DNA of 36,634 nucleotides from a virus, in IMG/VR virus record IMGVR_UViG_3300021960_000225, positions 1-36,634 of that record. One strand, written 5' to 3'. Of the stretch, positions 26,588 through 32,183 are shown one piece after another. Position 1 is the first letter of the stretch. The number at the start of each line of letters is the position of its first letter. The translations under genes were made by a program, and so were the position numbers. The notes beneath the pieces were generated by a model. The model saw nothing but the letters and a program-made list of their open reading frames with translations, had not been told where the DNA came from and searched no databases.

Positions 26588-26605
26588 ATGAAATACCTAG
26601 AAAAA

Positions 26606-26650
26606 TGGTGCCCAAGGGTGGAATCGAACCACCGACACGAGGATTTTCAG
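26606..26650 (-). other. attP core: 3' part of a tRNA-Phe(GAA) gene
   Basis: On the minus strand these 45 bases read, in order, a CTGAAAA anticodon loop (anticodon GAA), TCCTC, GTGTC, a T arm GGTGG-TTCGATT-CCACC, CTTGGGC and ACCA, the last parts of a tRNA-Phe. There is no 5' half: the bases upstream cannot form the anticodon stem or acceptor. So this is the phage copy of the host target, restoring the 3' end of the tRNA after integration. It lies 70 bases before the integrase start. Confidence 0.85.
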
Positions 26651-26719
26651 TCTCATGGCGAGGGGCAAGAGTCCTACTTAGACATCTTTTTTCTTGGTAA
26701 TAACACAAAAGGAAACAAA

Positions 26720-27691
26720 ATGAAATATACGAAAGAATACATTAAGAAAGATGGCACTAAAGTTTTCCATGTTTGTATCAGGATGCAAGGCGTGGAAATC
26801 TCTCAAAAATTTTTTGATAAAACTATAGCGGAAAAGTTTATTCATCATACTATTACGGACATAGATCGTAAGAAGCTGGATACTTACTCAGAAAATAAAT
26901 GCTTTAATGAGTTAGCTACCTTATATGAAAATGAAAAACTACCTGAACTATCTGATGAAATGGCACAGATACGGATGGTGAGGAAGCTGGTAAAAGATTT
27001 TAGATTGTTATTAAATATAAAAGAAGGACCTTTATATTTAACAAAAAAAAATGTGAAGCAATACGTTACTAGTAAAAAACATTTAGCACCTACCAGTGTT
27101 CATAAGCGTGTTAATCGTATTAAACAAATTTATGATCATGCTATTGAAGAACATGAAATGCGAATAATTAATCCTGCTGTGGAGGTGAAGAAGCCAGTTA
27201 CAGGTGATGATGCGCGTGATCGTCGTCCATCGTTTTACGAATTAAAGATGTTGTGTAAACACGGGTCATCTGAATTGTGGTCCAGCGTTAAGATTGCGAT
27301 ACTTACATGTATGCGTAAGGCGGAATGGATTAACCGTGAATATAAAATTGAGAAAACAAAGAATGGTTATTTATTAATTTTAGATGAACATAAGACGGTG
27401 AAACATATTGGTAAAAGAAAAATACCAATACCGACAAAGGCTTATAACTTAATGATGCGTAATGACTTACCTAGTTATGATGCATTAAAGAGTCAGTGGC
27501 AACGATTGATGGCTAAATTACAGTTTGATGATTTGCGTTTTAATGACATGAGACATGAAGGTATTAGTCGTTTGTTTGAAAAAGGTTTTCATATTCCCGA
27601 GGTTGCTTTAGTTAGCGGTCACAAAGATTGGAAAATGTTAAAACGATATACTAATCTTCGTCCTGAGAATTTGTTAAAGAAGTTAAATTAA
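26720..27691 (+). CDS. int: Tyrosine recombinase integrase, 323 aa
   Basis: The protein is a site-specific recombinase: an N-terminal arm-binding region (YIKKDGTKVFHVCIRMQG), a core-binding helical domain, and a catalytic domain with ILTCMRKAEW (Arg I), HKTVKHIGKRKIPIP (Lys), DLRFNDMRHEG (box II), VSGHKDW (His) and LKRYTNL (Tyr nucleophile about residue 310). ATG 26720 (AAAAGGAAAC upstream) is preferred; a start 44 codons upstream would translate the tRNA piece, giving a WCPRVESNHRHEDFQSH artefact. It would integrate the phage at a host tRNA-Phe gene. Confidence 0.9.
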   Translation: MKYTKEYIKKDGTKVFHVCIRMQGVEISQKFFDKTIAEKFIHHTITDIDRKKLDTYSENKCFNELATLYENEKLPELSDEMAQIRMVRKLVKDFRLLLNIKEGPLYLTKKNVKQYVTSKKHLAPTSVHKRVNRIKQIYDHAIEEHEMRIINPAVEVKKPVTGDDARDRRPSFYELKMLCKHGSSELWSSVKIAILTCMRKAEWINREYKIEKTKNGYLLILDEHKTVKHIGKRKIPIPTKAYNLMMRNDLPSYDALKSQWQRLMAKLQFDDLRFNDMRHEGISRLFEKGFHIPEVALVSGHKDWKMLKRYTNLRPENLLKKLN

Positions 27692-27812: not shown

Positions 27813-27824
27813 AACAATGTTATA
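27810..27824 (-). promoter_or_regulatory. Operator-like 15-mer with -10 box and start codon
   Basis: On the minus strand TATAACATTGTTATG, identical to bases 9648-9662. TATAAC would be the -10 box; the ATG is the start of the 53-residue gene. No convincing -35 box lies 17-18 bases upstream. It overlaps the stop codon of the 802-residue late gene, so a bound protein could also act as a roadblock at the end of the late region. Confidence 0.55.
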
Positions 27825-30228
27825 CCATAGCTGTATTTAAAAGACCAGAATTGATTTCTTGTTTTTTTAACAGACCATCTTTAGGCATTGTATCAGCTTT
27901 AGCTAATTTTAATATATCTTTAAACCAACTTTCATTGACCATATTTTTTAATATATTAGACATTGTAGGTGCTAATCTTTTTGTAAGTTTAGGGTCAACT
28001 AAATATCCTTTTATAAAATCAGCCAATAATTCAACATCTTTATTTCTATAATAAATTTGTTCTTGATGTCGTTGTTTAACTTTATCAGGAATATCACCTT
28101 TATAAGATTTAATATGTTTATCATTCCATAAATTAGGACGCATCTTTTTTGACACTGCTTCTAATTCAGCTTTAGCTAAACTTACATTGAAATTATACCC
28201 TTGTAAAAAATCTGGTATAGTATTTTTAGATAATTGTTGATGCAATAAATGACCTACTTCATGTGATAAAGTTTCCATTTCAGAATAACTATAAGGAGGT
28301 TGTAAAAATTTATTGTTTTGTCTTACAGCTAATGTTGTCTTAACTTGATTGTCTTTTATTTCTAATAATTCATTTAATTTATTTACCTCATCAGATGTAG
28401 CCTTACCTGACTCTACTTTATTTTTTAATGCATCAATTCTATTTCTTAAACTTAATGGGGCAATTTGTGTATCTTGTACTAAACCCATTATTAATGGGTC
28501 TTTATCAAAATATTTACTCGTGCTTTTTATACTATCTGACATAATATAAGCTATTCGTTTTATTTCATTGTCTTTTAAACCTGTTTGAACTCCATCTATA
28601 TTGCCAGAAACAAATTTTGCTTCTACTGGTTTATTTCTTATTTTTCCGACAGAAGTTTCTTTTATTGGCTCTAATCCTTGCTCAACTCGTACTTTGTTTA
28701 AATCTTTTAAATCTTGCGTATCTAATTGTGCTTTAATTTTTGATTGTTCGGCCCAAGTTTCGCCTTGTGAAATTATTAATTCTCTATCTATAATTTTTTT
28801 TTGTATATTGTTTTCAAATTTACTTTGTTCTTTTGCGTTAACTTTTAAACCATGCCAAAGATTACCTTTATCATTTTCCCATGATTTTGATTTAGTGTAC
28901 CAATCATATTCATAAATAATGCCGTTTTTAGTTTCATCAGCTATATTTAAACCTTCAAACATAGGCCCTGCTTCTTCCATTGTATAACCAATAGATGCAT
29001 TTACATTTTCAAAGTTAGGGTCTTTATTAAGTAATGACTCATCAAATAAAATTACTTTTTGATCGGCAAAAGGTCTTTCGTTCTGGGGAATAAAGTCAGG
29101 GTCATTTGGTTTTGGTACCGTACCATCTTCACGTCGCATTGATTTATTATAGTTTACCCATGCGTTTTGAAATAATGTTTCATTAGCTAATGCTGGAATA
29201 GATGCATCACTATACATATTAGCGTGTGATCTAAACGCATTGTATTCACCTTTAGGACCAAACTGAAAACCATTTGGTGTGTGACCATAAAAATCATGCA
29301 CAACACGAAATACATCATTCATTATTAATTCTTGTCCGTCTAATATAATTCCTGATGGTTGTGCTAATGGGTGATCGGGAGGAAGATCATCTAAATTAGT
29401 TTTTAAAAATTTTAAACTTTTATTATTAGCAACATCATTCATCATGTGACCTGATGATACGTAAGGTTCTGGCTTACCTTTAGAACCAATATAAATTTTA
29501 GGAATAATACCACCATCAATCATGTGTTGATACTGTGCTAATGTTTCATTTATTAATGTTTCGTAAGATGCTTGTATTTTAGGATGATTAGGTTGATGCT
29601 TGGCCCCTTCATAAAAATCAGCTATCTCTTTTAAATAACTTTCTGGTGCATCAACTTTATTTGTAACTAATTGCTTGGGGTTATTAATATTTTTATTGTA
29701 TGATAAATATAATTGCTGGCTAAATTGATTTGGTTGTGTTCCAATTTTTTCAACAATTGCTTCAACAATTTCTTTTGGTGGTTTCTTACCTTGATTGGCT
29801 CTGAACCACGGTTGGAATTCTGATAGTGTAGGAAAAGCAAAAACACCTTCAACTAGATGACCATAGAATTGATCACCAAACTCGTCGGGGTCCATACTCC
29901 CCCCTGAATTATACATAAATTGTGATGTCTTAGCTTGCCAATCTTCAGGAAGCATTTCGTACACCCCTTCTGCTGTATCACCAGCAAAAGCAAAAGGTAA
30001 ATTAACTGCACCCATTCCAAGATTAAATGCTTTCTCACCAGTCTCTAATAGTCCTGTGCCTAGTGCTTTATTAAATTGTTGGAAAGGTTTTATAATTGGA
30101 TTGTCTGAAAATTCTTGGCCAGTAATAGTCTTGCCTGTATTTACTCCTAATAAATTATCAGTAAAAGGTGTTTCGCTTGCGCCTTGAAATCCTTTTATTG
30201 TTCTTAAATCAAGAAGATTGTCGGCCAT
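27820..30228 (-). CDS. Polyvalent-type phage protein with C-terminal HExxH metallopeptidase, 802 aa
   Basis: The N-terminal 130 residues look like a virion or membrane-interacting region (GAVNLPFAFAGDTAEGVYEM). Residues about 220-365 hold a conserved block with PSGIILDGQELIMNDVFRVV, HDFYGH (H311, D312, H316) and FGPKGEYNAFRSHANMYSDA, reminiscent of a domain seen in phage polyvalent and MuF-type proteins. The C-terminal part has SHEVGHLLHQQLSK (H656, E657, H660) and, 73 residues later, KDVELLADFIKGYLVDPK (E733), the layout of a gluzincin peptidase. It is probably delivered with DNA into the host. It is the last big gene of the late region. Confidence 0.7.
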   Translation of the reverse strand: MADNLLDLRTIKGFQGASETPFTDNLLGVNTGKTITGQEFSDNPIIKPFQQFNKALGTGLLETGEKAFNLGMGAVNLPFAFAGDTAEGVYEMLPEDWQAKTSQFMYNSGGSMDPDEFGDQFYGHLVEGVFAFPTLSEFQPWFRANQGKKPPKEIVEAIVEKIGTQPNQFSQQLYLSYNKNINNPKQLVTNKVDAPESYLKEIADFYEGAKHQPNHPKIQASYETLINETLAQYQHMIDGGIIPKIYIGSKGKPEPYVSSGHMMNDVANNKSLKFLKTNLDDLPPDHPLAQPSGIILDGQELIMNDVFRVVHDFYGHTPNGFQFGPKGEYNAFRSHANMYSDASIPALANETLFQNAWVNYNKSMRREDGTVPKPNDPDFIPQNERPFADQKVILFDESLLNKDPNFENVNASIGYTMEEAGPMFEGLNIADETKNGIIYEYDWYTKSKSWENDKGNLWHGLKVNAKEQSKFENNIQKKIIDRELIISQGETWAEQSKIKAQLDTQDLKDLNKVRVEQGLEPIKETSVGKIRNKPVEAKFVSGNIDGVQTGLKDNEIKRIAYIMSDSIKSTSKYFDKDPLIMGLVQDTQIAPLSLRNRIDALKNKVESGKATSDEVNKLNELLEIKDNQVKTTLAVRQNNKFLQPPYSYSEMETLSHEVGHLLHQQLSKNTIPDFLQGYNFNVSLAKAELEAVSKKMRPNLWNDKHIKSYKGDIPDKVKQRHQEQIYYRNKDVELLADFIKGYLVDPKLTKRLAPTMSNILKNMVNESWFKDILKLAKADTMPKDGLLKKQEINSGLLNTAMV

Positions 30229-30562
30229 GAATATTGTCTTGCAAAAATTTTAGGAACCAAGGATTGTCTTTAAAGACAGTCATCAGTCCGTTGGTTACTG
30301 AGTTAACAACTATTTCCTCGTTGCTATCTACACATAATACATTTCCATCTACGGTCAGGGAATGTTCATACACCACTGCATGTAACACTTCATGGAGTAG
30401 TGTATTAGAAAAATCGTTTGGCGTTAAGTCTTGTTGTATTTCTATCTTGTTTGCTCGGTGTTGATATTCCCCATAACAATCAGTTTGTTTTGTGAAATCA
30501 GAACGAACAAGGTCAATGGCAATGTCCTTGTATCCAACTTTAATTTTTGGAGGACACTTCAT
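30209..30562 (-). CDS. Small zincin-like protein with HEVLH, 117 aa
   Basis: The sequence carries TLLHEVLHAVVYEH with H57, E58 and H61 (HExxH) and a following acidic, helical segment NEEIVVNSVTNGLMTVFKDNP. The form KIKVGYKDIAIDLV...IEIQQDLTPNDFSNTLLHEVLHA is common among small SprT/ImmA-like zincins in marine short-tailed phages. A proteolytic role is inferred from motif only. It overlaps the start of the 802-residue gene by 20 bases. Confidence 0.7.
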   Translation of the reverse strand: MKCPPKIKVGYKDIAIDLVRSDFTKQTDCYGEYQHRANKIEIQQDLTPNDFSNTLLHEVLHAVVYEHSLTVDGNVLCVDSNEEIVVNSVTNGLMTVFKDNPWFLKFLQDNIHGRQSS

Positions 30563-30674: not shown

Positions 30675-31088
30675 TTATTTTGTAAGACCCTTGGTCTTGT
30701 CGTATGAACGTAATGCCCCCATACCCAAAAGTGCCATGACCAAAGGCATTAGTGTGCCCATGTCTAATTGAGGTAATGGCGCTGTTTCAATATTAAATGT
30801 TGCTATAAAAAACATTAAAAATTGTTTTGCAACGAACTCCCAAAATATTGCTAATGCACATGACATACCTATTAATGGTCGCCATGACCGTTGCAACATT
30901 CCAGAAATACCACCAGCTTTGCTTTGTGCATCAGCCAAATTAATATCTGATTGTGCTTTGTTTATTTGTGCTTCAATTTCTTTAAGTTTTATTTTAGCAT
31001 TATTTTTTTCTTCTTCTGATGTGTGAAGATTGTCAATGATACCACCAACATTTTTTACAATATCTCCACCTAATAATTTTCCTAACAT
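30675..31088 (-). CDS. Holin-like 3-TM protein, 137 aa
   Basis: The N-terminal half is amphipathic helix/coiled coil (KIKLKEIEAQINKAQSDINL). Then QRSWRPLIGMSCALAIFWEF, VAKQFLMFFIATF and MGTLMPLVMALLGMGALRSYDKTKG match the Holin_3TMs pattern (RPxxG...W; final GMGxxRSxEK). It would form membrane lesions that release endolysin. It begins where the SleB gene stops. Confidence 0.8.
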   Translation of the reverse strand: MLGKLLGGDIVKNVGGIIDNLHTSEEEKNNAKIKLKEIEAQINKAQSDINLADAQSKAGGISGMLQRSWRPLIGMSCALAIFWEFVAKQFLMFFIATFNIETAPLPQLDMGTLMPLVMALLGMGALRSYDKTKGLTK

Positions 31089-31489
31089 TAATCTATATCC
31101 TCATAAAAACTGTGAGTACCTATTTTTACAATAGGTGTTTTCCCTTCTGCCCACTTAGGTTCACTAATATAATCTGCATAGTAATGAGTAGCTTTACCGA
31201 CATTACTATCGTGCAATCCATCTAAAACATTATTCGCTATATCAACAAAGTCTTTTATATCTCCGTGAGTAAGCTGTTCCATTTTTTCTTTGTTCGGGTC
31301 ATTCTCATTCCAACATGAAAACTGCCATTTCTTTTTGCATACACCTTCTAAAGTATCTGCACTAAACCACCTTTTAGAGTCTAATCTATTTTTAATGACA
31401 TGAGCAATTGCATATTGTCCTTCTTTGGTTTCACCTCTTGACTCACCCCATATTGTTTGAGCCATTACTAATCTATCAGACTTGTCCAT
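31088..31489 (-). CDS. SleB-type cell-wall hydrolase (endolysin), 133 aa
   Basis: The sequence VMAQTIWGESRGETKEGQYA, IAHVIKNRLDS, GVCKKKWQFSCWNENDPN and ATHYYADYISEPKWAEG with VKIGTHSFY is the core of the SleB cell-wall hydrolase family, with E in WGESRGE as probable catalytic acid. ATG 31489 (AAGGGGA upstream) is preferred to ATG 31507. It has no signal sequence, so release needs the holin. It overlaps the phosphoesterase gene by 14 bases. Confidence 0.85.
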   Translation of the reverse strand: MDKSDRLVMAQTIWGESRGETKEGQYAIAHVIKNRLDSKRWFSADTLEGVCKKKWQFSCWNENDPNKEKMEQLTHGDIKDFVDIANNVLDGLHDSNVGKATHYYADYISEPKWAEGKTPIVKIGTHSFYEDID

Positions 31490-32183
31490 TCCATTCCCCT
31501 TGTTCATTAAGATACATTGGTTGTATCATTGGTGTTTCGTTTATCAACATACCTACTGATAAAATTGGTCGTTTAATAAATAACTTTTGGTATTTCATTG
31601 CTGGTGCTTTTGGATTAATTAAACAGCCAGTTGACATGGCAAAGTTTAAACTTGTCGGTGAGGACCACCAACTTATATTTGACTGGGTGTGAAAATGTCC
31701 CGTAATTAATGAGCAAGATAATTCTTTTGAACTACTTAATACATTAGACTTAAAGTTATGTGTTAAGAATACTTTGTGTTTGCTTGGGAGGGTTAAGATG
31801 TATTTGTCGTGCCATCGCCAGTTTGCTTTTATGTCAAAGATGTCGTTTAAATCTTTAAGCATGCTTCGAGGAATACCAAAGCGTTCGGCCTTACGTTCAA
31901 TGCGTAGATCGTGATTACCTTTAAGTATATCCATATCAGGAAATAACTTCTCCAGCTTTCGTATTTCTTTTGTTGCTTTACTAACTTCAAAGATAGGTGA
32001 CTCCACTTCTGGGTCACTTGGTCTTTCTACTTGCACAGATGCTAAATCAAAAATATCTCCGATTGAAAACACTCTAGTAAATTTCCATTTCTTATGTAGC
32101 TTTGTTAAAAAAGCTAACGCTTGTGGATGTTGATAAGGCATGTGCAAATCAGAAATTATTAACACGCGATTATTTAGTTTCAT
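31476..32183 (-). CDS. Calcineurin-like metallophosphoesterase, 235 aa
   Basis: Metal-binding motifs in order: IISDLHMPY (D12, H14), FSIGDIFD (G42, D43), KGNHDLRIERKAERFGIP (N90, H91, D92), LTHNF (H142) and ITGHFHTQS (H163, H165). These are the residues of binuclear phosphoesterases. Phage versions have been proposed to act on cyclic nucleotides or nucleic-acid ends; the substrate is unknown here. It lies inside the lysis gene group. Confidence 0.85.
   Translation of the reverse strand: MKLNNRVLIISDLHMPYQHPQALAFLTKLHKKWKFTRVFSIGDIFDLASVQVERPSDPEVESPIFEVSKATKEIRKLEKLFPDMDILKGNHDLRIERKAERFGIPRSMLKDLNDIFDIKANWRWHDKYILTLPSKHKVFLTHNFKSNVLSSSKELSCSLITGHFHTQSNISWWSSPTSLNFAMSTGCLINPKAPAMKYQKLFIKRPILSVGMLINETPMIQPMYLNEQGEWNGQV

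Follow-up and report, generated by a model that had tools for sequence, protein, structure and literature searches.

A modular phage protein that joins a widespread HDxxGH domain, possibly tied to S-adenosylmethionine metabolism, to an interchangeable zincin-like module

The window analysed here spans 36634 bases and corresponds to a single virus record (IMG/VR record IMGVR_UViG_3300021960_000225). The element of interest is a gene for an 802-residue protein, with a gene for a 117-residue HExxH protein immediately upstream (Table 1). The initial annotation of this DNA had singled out the two adjacent HExxH genes and the combination, in the larger product, of a VFRVVHDFYGH block with HEVGH; the open reading frames (ORFs) and the motif positions were confirmed. 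From composition, the chance expectation of an HExxH motif is 0.019 for the 802-residue protein and 0.011 for the 117-residue protein. The larger protein consists of a leader, a domain named here after its HDxxGH motif, a linker and a putative zincin, and Pfam gave no match over the cut-off for it. The leader contains no transmembrane segment and, among the loci compared (loci are designated by L numbers), has relatives only within this phage group; on these grounds its identification as a known packaging module was rejected. The VFRVVHDFYGH block, which is not a peptidase motif, is the most informative part of the protein.

Table 1. Features of the window around the gene for the 802-residue protein.
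Feature	Position	Strand	Remark
802-residue modular protein: leader, HDxxGH domain, linker and putative zincin	27820..30228	-	
N-terminal leader, residues 1-187	29668..30228	-	helical model of low confidence
HDxxGH domain, residues 188-406	29011..29667	-	PHROG 3170 match at residues 253-364
VFRVVHDFYGH block, residues 306-316	29281..29313	-	
Module junction, approximate, ~residue 407	29000..29014	.	DNA identity to L002/L005 drops sharply, from ~97% to ~47%
Interchangeable C-terminal module (linker and putative zincin), residues 408-802	27823..29007	-	
HEVGH, residues 656-660 (E657)	28249..28263	-	
E733 (ELLAD)	28030..28032	-	invariant in 7-row alignment; candidate third zinc ligand
117-residue HExxH protein, HEVLH at residues 57-61 (E58)	30209..30562	-	overlaps the 802-residue ORF by 20 nt
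Lysis genes: gene transfer agent (GTA)-type three-transmembrane (3TM) holin and cell-wall hydrolase	30675..31507	-	upstream of the 117-residue gene
Tyrosine integrase	26588..27691	+	convergent with the 802-residue gene
tRNA-like sequence	26609..26683	-	overlaps 5' end of integrase ORF; Rfam 32.4 bits, missed by ARAGORN

Seven viral relatives of the protein (L001-L007) were aligned over their full length. L001 is 97% identical to the window protein over its whole length; L006, with 814 residues, is also full-length but diverged. The 725-residue proteins of L002-L005 have the first ~407 residues in common with the window protein and then continue into a diverged zincin with HETGH, whose identity to the window zincin is only 33-34%. 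At the DNA level, L002 and L005 are ~96-98% identical to the window across most of the N-terminal half of the gene and ~45-60% identical in the C-terminal module, with identity returning to ~91-98% in the integrase. The 570-residue protein of L007 keeps the leader and the zincin and lacks the HDxxGH domain. These alignments show cassette exchange and loss inside a single gene.

The C-terminal module retains HEVGH, HELGH or HETGH in all seven relatives, and HExGH and the later glutamate are kept in both cassette types. A Peptidase_M3 match at residues 647-677 is weak and below the cut-off, and no sequence match to solved structures was found. Structural comparison of residues 551-772, from a low-confidence model, aligns lethal-factor-type zincins, compared by catalytic-domain fold only, with Z of 5.1-5.9 over 108-121 residues, amid unrelated helical rows of like Z. 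This weak alignment agrees with the relation of polyvalent-protein zincins to lethal factor reported in the accessible text of Iyer et al. (2017, PMC5512222), where zincins are the commonest polyvalent-protein domain and are proposed as processors of these proteins. A profile of the window zincin found no match in the other giant phage proteins compared. The prevalence of zincins, the structural alignment and the retained residues would fit a protein centred on its protease, delivered with the DNA, with a zincin that either cleaves defence proteins of the host or processes the polypeptide itself, and an HDxxGH domain that is a passenger. We consider this unlikely: the alignment stands among helical rows of similar score, the model of the full protein has a mean predicted local distance difference test score (pLDDT) of 63.4, no solved structure matches the module in sequence, and it is the zincin that varies, whereas the HDxxGH domain is conserved and occurs widely in proteins that lack this zincin.

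The HDxxGH domain was found in 200 phage records by tblastn, and profile-guided scans located it in at least 587 viral and 134 genomic stretches, from each of which 80 loci were kept. Conservation was assessed on 119 sequences plus the window row, after phage-record loci L009-L015, near-duplicates and fragments had been left out. Over these 120 sequences Y256, N304, F307, R308, H311, D312, H316, G327, H335, E350 and K391 (window numbering) are invariant. Domain-wise structure prediction, a check that the initial annotation had called for, gave a compact model of the HDxxGH domain with a mean pLDDT of 91.8 and a predicted template-modelling score of 0.89; the model behind the lethal-factor rows of the C-terminal zincin is of low confidence. 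In the HDxxGH model H311/H316 lie on one helix, H335 on the next and E350 on the one after that, which hints at a metal site.

Database searches with the domain were largely negative. Pfam gave nothing for the window row at E up to 1, with only weak, scattered matches for the 120 members; there is no NCBIfam or PADLOC match, and a PDB sequence search returned one designed protein only (E 0.012). With the model, Foldseek found nothing in the PDB at E <=0.001 (best E 3.1), and the best Z from VIA-align was 2.9 among 233 chains. These failed searches are not proof of a new fold. A viral structure library yielded 21 matches at E <=0.001, some named large polyvalent protein or ART-PolyVal-like; short proteins of T7-like phages matched less well (LKA1 at E 0.013). 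The H[DE]xxGH motif and the helix order of the domain led us to consider a distant kinship with aromatic amino acid hydroxylases, under which it would be a non-haem iron oxygenase. A profile comparison aligns the motif (P 0.0013), and we take the order of H311/H316, H335 and E350 in the model to be that of these hydroxylases; however, column shuffles that keep the motif equal the profile score against PF00351 in 5 of 60 trials, and Foldseek matched no such enzyme. Because of the shuffles the kinship was rejected as unproven, and the idea is very improbable.

In phages, the domain forms part of large proteins, the longest exceeding 3000 residues, and several of these adjoin lysozyme or structural genes. 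One homologue, Rhodococcus phage E3 gp205, is annotated as a structural protein. PHROG 3170 (Mycobacterium phage Sebata gp107 type) matches the domain with an E of 1.8e-14; Sebata gp107 is matched over its full length, but is a protein of 433 residues without a counterpart of the window zincin module. Like the phage polyvalent proteins described in the accessible text of Iyer et al. (2017, PMC5512222), the 802-residue protein has several unrelated domains, among them a putative zincin, a late-gene neighbourhood and domain exchange; it differs in being smaller than the giants and in carrying a domain without a Pfam match. The words hydroxylase, HDxxGH, S-adenosyl, AdoMet and SAM are absent from the main text of that paper. 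By definition a polyvalent protein combines at least two domains with disparate predicted activities; here the HDxxGH domain and the HExGH module are distinct, and their activities are putative. The initial annotation's view of a multidomain protein of the polyvalent kind is borne out by the presence of HDxxGH in giant phage proteins, by the weak zincin evidence and by the swapping and loss of modules, and we conclude that the 802-residue protein is probably a small polyvalent protein.

The giant homologues adjoining lysozyme-bearing and structural genes, together with the annotation of E3 gp205, could also indicate a virion or ejection component in which the HDxxGH and HExxH motifs are structural remnants. 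This is quite improbable, as residues of the metal-ligand type are invariant across the 120 phage and cellular sequences, stand-alone cellular copies lie in metabolic operons and the domain can be lost, as in L007. On its presence in virions, nothing was found in the accessible text of PMC7150772 or PMC3079711, or in titles and abstracts of the Bxz1 virion proteomics literature.

A second phage context is the early-protein family of LKA1 ORF7 (PHROG 7806), which tblastn found in 123 phage records. A profile of eight LKA1 ORF7-type proteins aligns with the HDxxGH domain with a probability of 91 and P of 9.4e-7, and none of 60 column shuffles retaining the FRxxHDxGH columns reached this score. 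The two share N..FR..HD..GH followed by GE, T..Q and DQ in the same order, whereas the LKA1 type has one residue fewer between the two histidines and is encoded by stand-alone early genes for ~145-195 residues. The LKA1 ORF7 family thus holds a domain homologous to the HDxxGH domain. Its genes are left-end early genes of T7-like Pseudomonas phages, and the gene is the first annotated one in Haage and Phi-S1 and the second in phi15. In T7 and T3 the equivalent left-end early position holds Ocr and SAMase. Particles of phi15 contain two early gene products, whose names are absent from the accessible text of PMC3079711; in the phi15 record ORF5 and ORF7 are named virion structural protein and the relevant ORF2 is not.

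Cellular copies provide a third context. Within ~6 kb of the domain, 41 of 61 complete stand-alone cellular loci have an S-adenosylmethionine (SAM)-cycle or sulfur gene; those sought were S-adenosylhomocysteine hydrolase (SAHH), SAHH-like, adenosine deaminase, homocysteine methyltransferase, Cys/Met pyridoxal phosphate (PLP) enzyme, SufS-like and DUF3293 genes. Neighbours were named by Pfam on representatives, apart from three (SufS-like, Cys/Met PLP enzyme and homocysteine methyltransferase) whose names we presume from their sequences. A marine type has SAHH-like, HDxxGH and DUF3293 genes in a tight operon (L100, L104, L110, L114, L117 and L121), with the same three genes in a different order in L102 and L118 and without DUF3293 in L108. 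The HDxxGH domain and DUF3293 are fused in L169/L171, and in Actinophytocola (L101:4711-7152) SAHH-like, HDxxGH and DUF3293 parts lie in a single ORF.

Two further groups of cellular loci were observed. L123, L132, L135 and similar loci are mostly Microbacterium variants of 463-560 residues with FRAVHD(A/T)(I/L)AH, in which A replaces G, and have no sought SAM-cycle neighbour. In L122, L133, L129 and similar actinobacterial loci, a conserved gene cluster surrounds the HDxxGH gene; it presumably comprises SufS-like, methyltransferase, Cys/Met PLP enzyme and homocysteine methyltransferase genes, with what we take to be an ABC1-like kinase or TldD/PmbA-like gene nearby in some, and may represent a previously undescribed biosynthetic or methyl-cycle cluster.

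A DUF3293 profile built from the cellular genes was run on the 80 viral and 80 genomic loci. A DUF3293-like domain lies in the same ORF as HDxxGH in phage loci L025-L027, L030, L034 and L036, a gene of the DUF3293-profile/SAM-lyase family adjoins the HDxxGH gene in L045 and L046, and 13 of the 80 genomic loci match, including the prophage-like L098 and L099. The neighbour in L045 matches SAM lyase PF23780 with 51.9 bits (cut-off 28; E 9.4e-14) and the L099 domain also passes (30.2 versus 28), the remaining phage copies falling below; the 802-residue protein has no match to PF23780 at E up to 1. Counterparts of the Svi3-3 key residues Gly56, Tyr58, Glu69 and Gln104 (PMC7877911, accessible text) were identified by eye in several, not all, rows of the SAM lyase/DUF3293 alignment. 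A PDB sequence search with this alignment, in which the L101 row is out of frame, gave no credible match. With the phage SAM lyases (T3 SAMase and Svi3-3; PMC7877911, accessible text) the HDxxGH domain shares the proposed target pathway, an early-gene position in T7-like Pseudomonas phages and fusion or adjacency in a few relatives, but it is unrelated in sequence searches and is not a SAM lyase, and none was found in the window.

The initial annotation had noted the VFRVVHDFYGH block but put its emphasis on proteolysis; the associations of that block point instead to SAM metabolism. We propose that the 802-residue protein is a modular late-gene effector in which the HDxxGH domain would be a metal enzyme of the SAM cycle acting in early counter-defence and the zincin would trim or attack proteins, and give this proposal as a whole a probability of about 0.35. 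Its best-supported step is that the HDxxGH domain would be a metal-dependent enzyme, with H311, D312, H316, H335 and E350 invariant; next in support, the substrate may be SAM or a product of the SAM cycle. The domain would act soon after the DNA enters the cell, at a very early stage, either within carried-in proteins or, elsewhere, as an immediate-early protein, and this action could weaken SAM-dependent host defence such as restriction-modification. In the window phage the 802-residue protein would arrive in the particle, as the early role requires because its gene is late. The least-supported step concerns the zincin, which might trim its own polypeptide or attack a variable host protein; that close relatives carry different zincins suggests that its task changes rapidly. 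More tentatively than the proposal itself, HDxxGH may represent a new class of metal enzyme of the SAM cycle, present in bacterial operons and used by phages as an early or virion-delivered counter-defence, with or instead of SAM lyases, against restriction that depends on SAM or against immune signals derived from it; in the window this domain is joined to an interchangeable protease cassette.

Several observations weigh against the proposal. No fold match from Foldseek or VIA-align assigns a chemistry to the HDxxGH domain, and the sharing of operons suggests a pathway, not a reaction. None of the sought genes is present in 20 of the 61 stand-alone cellular loci, including the Microbacterium-type group, or, in a stringent single-sequence search, in any of the 80 viral loci. 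A SAM-lyase/DUF3293 neighbour or fusion is present in only eight of the 80 viral loci, three being near-copies and two more alike; the Pfam SAM lyase model matches only two of 39 viral records, and the DUF3293 profile search detected no SAM-lyase or DUF3293 domain in the window. Finally, the leader carries no recognised packaging signal, though the early role of a late gene requires packaging.

What is new here is the breadth of the HDxxGH domain, its kinship to early proteins of T7-like phages and its SAM/sulfur context. Searches of the open-licence part of PubMed Central found no paper on any of these and none on DUF3293, and no abstract listed there describes a link between polyvalent proteins and SAM lyases. 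The domain occurs in hundreds of phage contigs with conserved metal-ligand-like residues and is absent from the curated family libraries searched, and its three independent contexts (within giant phage proteins, among left-end early genes and in SAM/sulfur operons) converge on one testable idea. If correct, the proposal would add a second SAM-directed strategy alongside the T3-type SAM lyase and provide a function for many proteins that are currently annotated as hypothetical.

The 117-residue HExxH protein matches PHROG 1233 (E 4.5e-16) and scores 21.4 bits against SprT-like, under the curated cut-off of 25.6. HExxH is present in all 26 copies examined, and H67 is replaced by M in more distant copies. 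A scan for the gene gave 27 loci, and the neighbourhoods of 18 were laid out. In 11 of them the gene lies within the lysis region with no large protein in at least 2.9 kb downstream; in two (L183 and L184) it precedes a 702-709-residue protein without HExxH or HDxxGH motifs, in two it stands beside the leader family (one being the L007 record again and one cut off), and three are too short to judge. Since most loci examined carry it without the large protein, the gene belongs with the lysis region, and the position after it is a variable cargo slot. The initial annotation had suggested that the small zincin is a partner or processor of the 802-residue protein; the 11 loci without a large protein and the two with an unrelated one speak against a dedicated partner, and an opportunistic partnership may exist.

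The alternative contents of the slot vary. The 702-709-residue protein (L183:5335-7464 and L184:867-2975) has an IEELQSDW motif, and the L183 copy matches neither Pfam (E 0.01) nor PHROG (E 0.001). Similar E-E-[IL]-Q-S-D motifs are present in the HDxxGH giants L010 and L035. In L187, L189, L191, L193, L196 and L197 another gene, whose product presumably resembles a small heat-shock protein, occupies the slot ~400-874 nt downstream of the start of the small gene.

The 802-residue gene follows the holin, hydrolase and phosphoesterase genes on the strand of the structural genes, near late and virion genes, and is the last of the late genes, with the lysis cassette before it and the integrase beyond. 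Its place there, beside the likely tRNA-like attachment site, and the fact that the slot can hold an unrelated 702-709-residue protein (L183 and L184) or lack a large protein altogether (11 loci) lend themselves to a reading as lysogenic-conversion cargo: an accessory gene of the late operon that serves the lysogen or blocks superinfection and whose product is not in the virion. We regard this as rather unlikely, given that the gene is co-directional with, and directly after, the structural and lysis genes, and that HDxxGH relatives lie in giant proteins near virion genes, one being annotated as a structural protein.

In the rest of the window a portal (phrog_1216), a major head protein, a terminase and an ejection-type protein are recognisable. 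Among the best database matches of the portal are those to a phage of Pelagibacter and to one of Methylophilales (~41-43% identity), so the phage is probably marine and podovirus-like. The integrase and the tRNA-like sequence at its 5' end, which is likely to be the attachment site, suggest a temperate lifestyle. The first ~45 residues of the integrase ORF translate the tRNA-like sequence, and therefore the true start is probably a later MKYTKEYIKKDG. At the other end of the locus, the holin gene (30675-31088 in the window) is exchanged in close relatives for an unrelated-looking replacement (L001:2711-3091 and L002:4067-4450) with a sharp break in identity.

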